Source of the DNA: Pseudolabrys sp.
GTDB lineage: Bacteria > Pseudomonadota > Alphaproteobacteria > Rhizobiales > Xanthobacteraceae
Assembly (NCBI GenBank): GCA_022841665.1
Contig: JALHRB010000007.1
Location: 1 to 54,195 of the forward strand
DNA length: 54,195 bases
Reading direction: 5' to 3'
This document shows positions 10,093 to 40,818 of the stretch, piece by piece. Numbering within the stretch: the stretch's first letter is position 1; each line of letters opens with the position of its first letter. The notes under the pieces are model-generated. The model was given only the letters and a program-made list of their open reading frames with translations. It did not search any database and was not told the origin of the DNA. Made by a program: the position numbers and the translations under genes.

Positions 10093-11529
10093 TCAAACCA
10101 CCATCATCACCGGGTTTTCGATCAGCATCTTGAACGCGCCGATCAGCTCTGCCCCGAGCGCGCCGTCGACCGAGCGGTGATCGCAGGACAGTGTCACGCT
10201 CATGATGGTGGCGGGCACGATCTGGCCGCCCCGCACCACCGCGCGCTCCTCGCCCGCGCCGACCGCGAGAATGGTCGACTGCGGCGGGTTGATCACCGCG
10301 GTGAAGTCCTTGATGCCGTACATGCCGAGGTTCGACACCGAGGTGGTGCCGCCCTGGTACTCGTGCGGCTTGAGCTTGTGCGCGCGGGCGCGCGCGGCGA
10401 GGTCGCGCATCTCGTTCGAGATGGCCGACAGCGACTTGGTCTCGGCCTTGCGGATGATGGGCGTGATCAGCCCGCCCGGCAGCGCCACGGCGACGCTCAC
10501 GTCCGAGTGCTTATGACGAAGCATGCCGCCTTCCGTCCACGACACGTTGGCGTCGGGCACGCGTTGCAGGGCGAGCGCCAGCGCCTTGATGACGAAGTCG
10601 TTGACCGAGAGCTTGTAGGCTGGCTTGCCGTCCTTGTCCTTCGGCGCTGCGGCGTTGATCTCCTCGCGCGCGGCCATCAGTTTGCCGATGTCGCAGTCCA
10701 TCGTGAGATAGAAATGCGGCACCGTTTGCGTCGAGGCGGTGAGCCGCTGCGCGATGGTGCGGCGCATGCCGTCATGCGGCACGAAGTCGTAGGCGCCTTG
10801 CTCGTAGAGGCCGAGGATCTGCTTGTCCGATAGGCTGGTCGCGATCGCCGGCGCGCCGGCGGATACGGCCGCAGCCGGTGCGGCGCTCGGTGCGCGCAAA
10901 CCCTTGCCGGATTTGGCCTCCGCGATGTCGCGCGCGATCACGCGCCCGTGCGGGCCGGAGCCTTCGATGCGGGAAAGATCGATGCCGGCTTCCTTGGCGA
11001 GCCGGCGCGCGAGCGGGGAGGAGAAAGTGCGCGCTCCATGCGAGGCCTGAACCCCCTCACCCGCCGCCTTCGGCGGCGACCTCTCCCCACTGGGGAGAGG
11101 TGAAGAGCTCTGAGCCTGCGGCGCGGCAGAGCGCGCTCCCTCTCCCCCATAGCCCGTCGAAGACGTGCGTGAACGCCCTGATGCGGGAGAGGGTTGGGGT
11201 GAGGGGGACACTGACTCGGCTTTTTTCTCTGGCGCTTTCGGAGCCGCCGCCTGCGGTTTCGCGCCTGCCGCCGCCTTCACATCCTCGCCCTCGCCGGCGA
11301 GCACGGCGATGACCGCATTCACCGCCACGTCCTGCGTGCCTTCCGGCACCACGATTTTGGCGAGCGTGCCCTCGTCCACCGCCTCGTATTCCATCGTCGC
11401 CTTGTCGGTCTCGATCTCGGCGATGACGTCGCCCGACTTGATCGTGTCGCCCTCCTTCTTCAGCCAACGCGCTAGGTGGCCCTTCTCCATCGTGGGCGAC
11501 AGCGCGGGCATGAGGATGTTGGTGGGCAT
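10093..11529 (-). CDS. pdhC: Pyruvate dehydrogenase E2, dihydrolipoyl acetyltransferase
   Basis: E2 core of the pyruvate dehydrogenase complex, 478 residues; it carries acetyl groups on lipoate and transfers them to CoA. Domains in order: one lipoyl domain (1-78) with the modified Lys43 in ETDKATM; a long linker; a peripheral-subunit-binding domain (about 168-206, SSPLARRLAKEAG through GPHGRVIARDI); and the catalytic domain from about 245, ending with the active-site DHRSVDGALGAE. The linker, residues about 108-160, is translated from a palindromic repeat element (bases 11053-11206) and is rich in Ser, Pro and Gly. The frame remains open and all domains are intact, so the protein should work. 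It follows pdhB by 9 bases. Confidence 0.97.
   Translation of the reverse strand: MPTNILMPALSPTMEKGHLARWLKKEGDTIKSGDVIAEIETDKATMEYEAVDEGTLAKIVVPEGTQDVAVNAVIAVLAGEGEDVKAAAGAKPQAAAPKAPEKKAESVSPSPQPSPASGRSRTSSTGYGGEGARSAAPQAQSSSPLPSGERSPPKAAGEGVQASHGARTFSSPLARRLAKEAGIDLSRIEGSGPHGRVIARDIAEAKSGKGLRAPSAAPAAAVSAGAPAIATSLSDKQILGLYEQGAYDFVPHDGMRRTIAQRLTASTQTVPHFYLTMDCDIGKLMAAREEINAAAPKDKDGKPAYKLSVNDFVIKALALALQRVPDANVSWTEGGMLRHKHSDVSVAVALPGGLITPIIRKAETKSLSAISNEMRDLAARARAHKLKPHEYQGGTTSVSNLGMYGIKDFTAVINPPQSTILAVGAGEERAVVRGGQIVPATIMSVTLSCDHRSVDGALGAELIGAFKMLIENPVMMVV
11053..11206. repeat. Palindromic repeat element embedded in the pdhC reading frame
   Basis: Nested inverted repeats lie wholly inside pdhC: an outer 10-bp pair at 11053-11062 and 11197-11206, a 9-bp pair at 11138-11146 and 11185-11193, and a tight 9-bp hairpin at 11080-11088 and 11092-11100 with a 3-base loop. 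The layout and base words (CCCTCACCC, CTCTCCC, GGGAGAGGG) match a class of intergenic repeats common in Alphaproteobacteria. Here it is read through as part of the E2 linker. The identity of the family is from memory; the inverted repeats are seen directly. Confidence 0.8.
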
Positions 11530-11538
11530 GGGCGGCGC

Positions 11539-12954
11539 TTACTTGTAACAAACGGCTTTGGCCGCCTCGACCACTTCCGCCACCGACGGCAGCGCGAGCT
11601 TTTCGAGATTGGCGGCGTAAGGCATCGGCACTTCCTTGCCCGACACGCGCGCGACCGGCGCGTCGAGGTAGTCGAAGGCCTGCTCCATGATGCGCGCGGC
11701 GATCTCGGCGCCGACGCCGGATTGCGCCCACCCCTCCTCCACCGTCACCGCGCGGCCGGTCTTCTTCACCGACGCAATGATGGTCTCGGTGTCCATCGGC
11801 TTGAGCGTGCGCAGGTCGATGACTTCAGCCTCGATGCCCTCGCCGGCCAGCTCCTCCGCCGCCTTGAGCGCATAGGTCATGCCCATCGACCAGGCGATGA
11901 GGGTCACGTCGCTGCCGGCGCGCGCGATCTTGGCCTTGCCGATCGGCAGCACAAAGTCGTCGAGCTTCGGCACTTCCGAGGAATGGCCGTAGAGGATTTC
12001 ATTTTCTAAAAAGACGACCGGATTGGGATCGCGGATCGCCGCCTTCAGCAAGCCCTTGGCGTCGGCCGCGGTCGAGGGCGCGATCACCTTCAGGCCGGGA
12101 ATGTGCGAGTACCAGGCCGAGTAATCCTGGCTGTGCTGGGCGGCGACGCGCGCGGCCGCGCCGTTCGGGCCGCGGAAAACGATCGGGCAGCCCATCTGGC
12201 CGCCCGACATGTAAAGAGTCTTCGCCGCCGAGTTGATGATCTGGTCGATCGCCTGCATGGCGAAATTCCAGGTCATGAATTCGACGATGGGTTTCAATCC
12301 GGCCAGCGCGGCGCCGACGCCCAAACCCGCAAAGCCGTGCTCGGTGATCGGCGTGTCGATGACACGCTTGTCGCCGAATTCCTGCAGCAGGCCCTGCGTC
12401 ACCTTGTAGGCACCCTGATACTCGGCGACCTCCTCGCCCATCACGAAGACGTCCTTGTCGCGCCGCATCTCCTCGGCCATGGCGTCGCGCAAGGCCTCGC
12501 GCATGGTCATGGTGACCATCTCGGTGCCTGCGGGAATGTCGGGATCGGCGGCGACTTTGGTTTCGGGTGCTTCCGGCGCTTTTTCTTGGCTTTTGGGGAC
12601 CGGGGTTGCCGGCGCCTTGGCTTCGGTCTTCTCGGATTTTGCGGGCGGTGCGGACTCGGCGGCTTTCTGCTGGGCGGAAGGTTTCGATGCTTTGATCTCG
12701 GATTTGTCTTCGCCTTCGGCCAGGATCAGCGCAATCGGCGTGTTCACGGCCACATCGGCGGTGCCTTCCGGCACCAGAATCTTGCCGAGCGTGCCCTCAT
12801 CGGCGGCTTCCACTTCCATGGTGGCCTTGTCGGTCTCGATCTCGGCGATCACGTCGCCGGACTTGACCGCGTCGCCTTCCTTCTTCAGCCACTTGGCGAG
12901 GTTGCCCTTCTCCATCGTGGGCGACAGCGCGGGCATGAGCACTTCGGTCGGCAT
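11539..12954 (-). CDS. pdhB: Pyruvate dehydrogenase E1 beta with N-terminal lipoyl domain
   Basis: Beta subunit of the E1 component, 471 residues; with PdhA it binds thiamine diphosphate and oxidatively decarboxylates pyruvate. The N-terminal 78 residues form a lipoyl domain with Lys43 in ETDKATM, then an Ala/Lys/Pro-rich linker (about 85-140), then the transketolase-like domain ([51 protein letters not shown]) and the C-terminal half with TVEEGW. A lipoyl-bearing E1 beta is known in Alphaproteobacteria. The start is ATG 12954, 14 bases after the pdhA stop; the frame is open further upstream, overlapping pdhA, but lacks the lipoyl start there. Its first domain is very similar to that of pdhC. 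Confidence 0.97.
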
Positions 12955-39361: not shown

Positions 39362-40666
<1,305 letters not shown>

Positions 40667-40674
40667 TTTCCACT

Positions 40675-40786
40675 GTCATTCCGGGGCGCCCGCGTGAGCG
40701 AGCGAACCCGGAATCCAGAAACGAATTCTGAAACGATAATGGAGTCCGGGTTCGCGACGGAGACCTTCGCATCCGTCGCGGTTCAT
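40675..40786. repeat. Palindromic repeat between gltA and the DUF433 gene
   Basis: Two palindromic parts: ATTCCGGG/CCCGGAAT at 40678-40685/40707-40714 and CGCGACGG/CCGTCGCG at 40753-40760/40773-40780. The arms are of a different family from those at 5699 and 7067. It separates the gltA operon from the toxin-antitoxin pair and lies about 30 bases upstream of the antitoxin ATG, where it might affect transcription. Confidence 0.65.
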
Positions 40787-40818
40787 GGTATTTTGCCATC
40801 CGAACCCGAGAGGCGCCT

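Follow-up and report, generated by a model that had tools for sequence, protein, structure and literature searches.

How does a sequence that looks like a dispersed palindromic repeat come to lie inside the reading frame of a core metabolic enzyme? The question is raised by the pdhC gene of a Pseudolabrys genome (G000; 3.85 Mb in 125 contigs, 95% complete), a contig of which was analysed over 54,195 nucleotides, hereafter called the window. The gene (10093..11529, minus strand) encodes the E2 component, dihydrolipoamide acetyltransferase, of the pyruvate dehydrogenase complex as an intact frame of 478 amino acids. It belongs to a minus-strand group which, from the sequence of the neighbours, we take to be pdhA, pdhB and pdhC, with lpd farther down. 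According to Pfam, E2 carries a lipoyl domain (PF00364) at residues 4-77 (11299..11520), an E3-binding, or peripheral-subunit-binding, domain (PF02817) at residues 169-202 (10924..11025) and the catalytic domain (PF00198) at residues 247-477 (10099..10791), all on the minus strand. By E2, the best-scoring named relative is a metagenome genome of Pseudolabrys, and other Hyphomicrobiales come next. The initial annotation had placed a palindromic repeat element at 11053-11206, read in frame as residues 108-160 between the first two domains. Both the intact frame with a domain on either side and the residue range were confirmed. The linker peptide at this place is Pro/Ser/Gly-rich, or Pro/Ser/Gly/Glu-rich when glutamate is counted.

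The element is a compound palindrome (SPSPQPSPASGRSRTSSTGYGGEGA...SPLPSGERSPPKAAGEG) occupying 11052..11207 on the minus strand, one base more at each end than first described. Its outer arms are perfect over 11 bases (11052-11062 / 11197-11207), and an inner hairpin has perfect 11-base arms (11079-11089 / 11091-11101). A third arm pair of 13 bases is 92% complementary (11138-11150 / 11181-11193), and an additional hairpin, GCCGCCTTCGGCGGC, is found at 11063-11077. The nested inverted repeats and the tight hairpin had been recognised properly, although their arms are slightly longer than the 10 and 9 bp originally given. In terms of the repeat families defined below, the element is a copy of family A made of two halves, all on the minus strand. 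Half u1 (CCCCCTCACCCCAACCCTCTCCC..GGGAGAGGG on the coding strand; 11138..11207) is separated by a 35-base spacer (11103..11137) from half u2 (CACCTCTCCCC..GGGGAGAGGTCG, a hairpin, then GGGTGAGGGGG, on the coding strand; 11052..11102). The u2 probe match extends over 11052-11105 with 92.6% identity, and the spacer is 80% identical to that of an E2 gene from the same genus (L022). Half u1 is interrupted in the loop of its hairpin by a nested repeat of 36 bases, or 12 codons, named N (11148..11183; 96.9% over 32 bases). Four 10-mer arm pairs match perfectly within 11050-11209, while 1000 dinucleotide shuffles of the region yielded 0.03 such pairs on average and never as many as four. The predicted RNA fold of the element has a z of -4.9 and was equalled in stability by 0 of 200 shuffles. 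These stem statistics exclude a chance origin of the palindrome.

When the same genome was searched with the element, as the initial annotation had proposed, at least 24 matches were obtained at E <= 0.001, the window included; the true number may be higher, as scoring covered 40 of 154 candidates. Two of the matches fall in a single element, which leaves at least 22 other places matching parts of the window repeat. Twenty of these 22 were retrieved and classed by eye: ten are A-like (counting L118, which is intermediate between A and C), three are C-like and seven consist of N inside other repeats. Family A has two inverted units, u1 and u2, whose arms read CCCCTCACCC, and u2 has an additional variable hairpin; family C is similar, with arms CCCCACCC. 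An open frame spans the repeat at 13 of the 20 places and none does so at the other seven. Ten of the 13 spanning-frame loci were submitted to Pfam, which recognised an Lhr-type helicase and TilS, assigned no family to seven and gave a single match below the cut-off for one (L114). Besides E2, copies in frames with recognised gene domains thus occur at two of the 20 places. The genome therefore holds copies that are read in frame as well as copies outside genes, in agreement with the repeat-family origin that had been claimed.

The nested repeat N is a 36-base palindrome, and its other copies in this genome sit within other hairpins. It was seen nested in hairpins of several repeat families (L112, L114, L115, L117, L119, L123, L124, L127 and L137), which would suit an element that targets hairpin loops. 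Among the 101 E2 linkers surveyed below, none besides that of the window passed the scoring rule for N, and in the same genus the E2 genes L002 and L022 carry A but lack N. For these two reasons N was probably inserted after A, and in the window element it is most likely the later of the two to have arrived.

A comparison with the linkers of relatives had also been proposed. The E2 sample comprised 101 distinct proteins out of 111 retrieved loci, and each linker was scored against A, B, C and N, a repeat being accepted when the score was at least 16 and 0 of 300 codon shuffles scored as high. Twenty-three of the 101 linkers passed, and two of them with single weak matches (L069 and L084) were removed. 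Of the resulting 21 repeat-bearing linkers, 11 contain family A (L001, L002, L011, L022, L033, L037, L038, L042, L061, L090 and L094), eight contain family B (L003, L008, L009, L015, L016, L023, L035 and L040) and two contain family C (L007 and L051). Family B is a distinct hairpin pair (CATCCTTCGAGACGC.. / ..CCTCAGGATGAGG). Close relatives of the window E2 mostly have either no repeat or another family in the linker, and a few share A. Many related E2 genes are thus without the repeat, and a linker conserved widely with no copies elsewhere, which the initial annotation had named as the opposing case, is not what was found. Three repeat-bearing linkers (L040, L042 and L094) are from named isolates, and the E2 repeat is therefore more than a metagenome artefact. 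In one further genome (L231, genome G230) the frame shifts after an A-type E2 repeat and does not read through into E2, owing to either a sequencing error or a broken gene.

The repeat families are scattered over the E2 phylogeny. On a tree of the linker-less E2 protein with 70 rows, from which 31 of the 101 rows, mostly distant ones, had been excluded beforehand, the states A, B, C and none require at least 18 changes, and presence against absence of a repeat requires 14, gains and losses being counted together in these figures. A quick tree of 100 rows gave 19 and 16 such changes, respectively. When only the labelled rows were considered, the three families needed seven changes, with a minimum of two and a mean of 8.3 for shuffled labels; 42 of 200 shuffles were as low, and the families are therefore hardly clustered on the tree. 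Several close rows are unlike: the sisters L040 (Rhodopseudomonas palustris XCP) and L042 (R. pentothenatexigens) bear B and A, the close rows L007 and L009 bear C and B, and of the very close E2 proteins L008 and L025 the former bears B and the latter none.

An internal control is offered by the neighbouring gene, which encodes PdhB (E1 beta; 11539..12954, minus strand). This protein, too, has a lipoyl domain at its N terminus and a flexible linker, here free of repeats. The PdhB linker is close in length to that of E2 (median 63 versus 65 residues) and was readable at 78 of 114 loci. One of these 78 PdhB linkers contains a repeat (type B, L011), against 12 of the E2 linkers at the same 78 loci, a comparison which carries no strict probability because the E2 rows are related, and so are not independent trials, and because the scoring rules were not quite identical (for PdhB, a z above 6 against 200 shuffles on both strands; for E2, 0 of 300 shuffles).

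The copies in E2 also differ from the others in the order of their halves. An exact pattern for A in the inward order was found at 474 places summed over 43 genomes of the genus, with at least one in 35 of them and none for a control pattern, while the exact outward pattern gave two matches in the 43 genomes, both in E2; such exact patterns miss diverged copies. In the wider family the outward pattern was found at 27 places in 20 of 296 genomes, four of them in E2, and an inward pair was also present at eight of these 27 loci. The A copies of E2 are thus mostly in an order that is rare between genes. Since the copies of the genus are inward and those of E2 mostly outward, E2 is not simply the recipient of a standard A copy. 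An outward order exclusive to E2 holds within the genus and fails in the wider family, where places outside E2 have it too. Stop codons are a weak explanation for the outward order, 12 of 13 inward A copies being open in at least one of the six frames. Moreover, one E2 copy (L037) and the copy in ThiC are inward, and therefore the inward form of A can be read through. The family C copies in E2 (L007 and L051) have the order opposite to that of the C copies of the window genome. In two loci of genus g26 (L168 and L170), A-like repeats in inward and outward order were observed close by, with long open frames across them.

The spacers between the halves of the A-type E2 repeats fall into at least five classes among 12 readable linkers. 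Identity inside groups is 80% for L001/L022, 82% for L033/L061 and 76-100% for L042/L174/L178/L179. Because spacers are common within groups, part of the spread reflects descent or linker exchange, not separate insertion. This points to shared descent or exchange within the spacer classes and to separate origins between them.

In-frame copies are not confined to pyruvate dehydrogenase. In the window genome, an Lhr-type helicase (L111 540-3200, contig C50) carries an A repeat after the Walker A motif, inside the DEAD domain, as an insert of 56 residues versus 7 in structure 5v9x. A TilS frame (L122 1177-2481, contig C57) has an A repeat at residues 261-319 of 435, which holds another nested palindrome (ACCCGAACTCGGGTTTACCCGAGTTCGGG) and is followed by 116 residues. 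Matches to the PP-loop domain and to solved structures stop short of the repeat (those to the structures at residue 229), and the part behind it would also belong to TilS. Among relatives, ThiC contains family A (54 residues versus 9 in structure 4s2a), UvrA contains family B (61 residues versus 4 in structure 2r6f), and family B is also in frame in a hydantoinase and in GlyS-beta, as identified by Pfam. UvrA frames with B were found at nine loci in several genera (L153, L190, L194-L196, L198, L199, L201 and L204), two of which were submitted to Pfam and both confirmed; the B copies apparently occupy the same loop, which would make it a second recurrent site. Homologues without the insert are therefore available for E2 (the repeat-free linkers), UvrA (2r6f), ThiC (4s2a) and Lhr (5v9x). 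In searches of 296 family genomes with the encoded peptides, 32 genomes had matches to the A peptide and 47 to the B peptide at E <= 0.001, intergenic places included, and the gene-hit tallies from these searches lean to E2 because queries from E2-encoded repeats favour its half order and frame.

Mobilisation by a RAYT-type transposase is unsupported in the window genome, which gave no match to Y1_Tnp (PF01797). This family had no match either in the copy-rich genomes G012, G004 and G027, and was found in five of the 43 genomes of the genus at E <= 0.001, four of them over the cut-off. A test for GTAG/CGTC tags (or the TGTC/CCTC variant) beside a stem of at least 8 bases found none in the window element, B, C or N, and six A copies tested for GTAG and CGTC carried neither tag. 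The test was positive for two repeats of the same genome (L117 and L123), and for 40641-40790 of the window as TGTC, not as GTAG/CGTC. Within the latter region, 40676-40717 is a TGTC-tagged palindromic repeat (TGTCATTCCGGGGCGCCC...CCCGGAAT), which is unrelated to the E2 repeat and belongs to the CGTC class described in PMC3733652. On inspection, the linker alignments showed no evident target-site duplication of the kind expected of a MITE, the linkers that lack the element having diverged too far for its borders to be fixed. Seven loci compared with Rfam had no hit up to E = 0.1.

Taken together, the established points, namely the further copies in the genome, the uninterrupted frame between recognised domains, the repeat-free relatives, the other families at the same site and the in-frame copies in core genes, are very probably explained by the entry of a dispersed Hyphomicrobiales repeat of family A, now with N nested in it, into pdhC, where it is translated as flexible linker. 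Such repeats would spread as small non-autonomous mobile DNA with the help of some enzyme. Copies falling into a hydrophilic, stop-free frame of a loop or linker would be tolerated as long as the peptide stays unstructured, and the E2 linker would be their commonest host, its sequence being unconstrained while it remains long and flexible. A resident repeat would then supply linker sequence and could itself be replaced or overlaid by another one. Gain, loss and replacement would all be cheap at this site since a Pro/Ser/Gly/Glu-rich peptide can serve as linker. The repeat is presumably selfish, and it may have been exapted.

Two other accounts can be largely set aside. The view that chance or codon bias created the inverted repeats in a plain GC-rich linker has in its favour that the linker is of low complexity and varies freely in element-free species. 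It is refuted by the many copies elsewhere in the genome, and the 0 of 300 codon shuffles reaching any accepted match score, together with the fold and arm-pair shuffles, leave it practically no probability. The hairpin could instead be maintained because it acts at the RNA level in the pdh operon, for instance by tuning transcript stability, with incidental coding content, as the very stable predicted fold would allow. This is improbable, given that the repeat is present in one close relative and absent, or swapped for another family, in the next, and that genes of other kinds contain comparable repeats. Hairpins as such may nevertheless have some generic role.

The most serious rival concerns the number of entries. 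One or a few ancient entries into E2 may have been followed by horizontal exchange of linkers between species and loss by replacement, which would produce the patchiness. The spacer identities within groups of the 12 A-type E2 linkers are consistent with this, as are the single frame shared by the A copies examined in E2 and their unusual half order, L037 excepted. Against it stand the three different families at the site, the number of A spacer classes and the inward order of L037. Devosia geojensis, moreover, is the sole repeat bearer among the eight rows of its branch, and N passes the rule in one linker only. We regard ancient entry as unlikely, though it is a good deal more credible than an RNA function.

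A broader reading extends repeated entry of mobile repeats to the site as such. The E2 linker of Hyphomicrobiales could be a standing capture site, in which mobile repeats of at least three families, including repeats within repeats, would be one of the chief sources from which Pseudolabrys and its kin have recently drawn new linker sequence, with selection choosing the hydrophilic frame; the unusual half order of A in E2 would then reflect a second way of insertion. This proposal is tentative, being plausible but somewhat short of probable. If it is true, linkers of core enzymes are remade from selfish DNA over the time scale of species. Because one linker is refilled repeatedly and a like linker lies one gene away as a control, the tolerance of a segment, the rate of repeat movement and the distinction between tolerated and used sequence become testable.

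Several known systems resemble the one described here. REPINs are paired inverted units mobilised by RAYT transposases. The inward copies of A similarly consist of paired inverted units between genes, but the present repeats are longer and untagged and the window genome has no Y1 family match. GTAG- and CGTC-tagged REPs are small palindromes within coding regions of several species, with UvrA as a host in both cases, according to PMC3733652. In the same paper, recB of two Xanthomonas carries different REPs at about one site, and such REPs, not necessarily genic, are present in Bradyrhizobium and R. palustris; the main text of that paper contains neither the word dehydrogenase nor the word acetyltransferase. 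Families A, B, C and N differ from them in being untagged, although other repeats of the same genome are tagged. Within a partial coverage of the literature, we found neither E2 nor any Hyphomicrobiales protein reported as carrying palindromic repeats.

Palindromic repeats that enter proteins are best known from Rickettsia, an organism hard to manipulate. These Rickettsia palindromic elements (RPE) were reportedly described by Ogata et al. in 2000 and 2002. As in the review PMC10969869, they are palindromes of about 150 bases, of several families, found in frame in core genes and translated as extra peptide. The resemblance to RPE suggested by the initial annotation holds as one of behaviour, with copies found in frame as well as outside genes and with homologues that lack the insert, and the kinship would be of this kind, not a claim on sequence. 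The differences are that Rickettsia belongs to another order, that here one linker has been taken repeatedly by different families, and that a nested repeat lies inside the first. Palindromes that code for protein are thus known; here other repeats do so, and they have a favoured site, the E2 linker. RPE-like behaviour is now found in free-living and partly culturable Hyphomicrobiales, in the genes for pyruvate dehydrogenase, UvrA, ThiC, GlyS-beta and a helicase.
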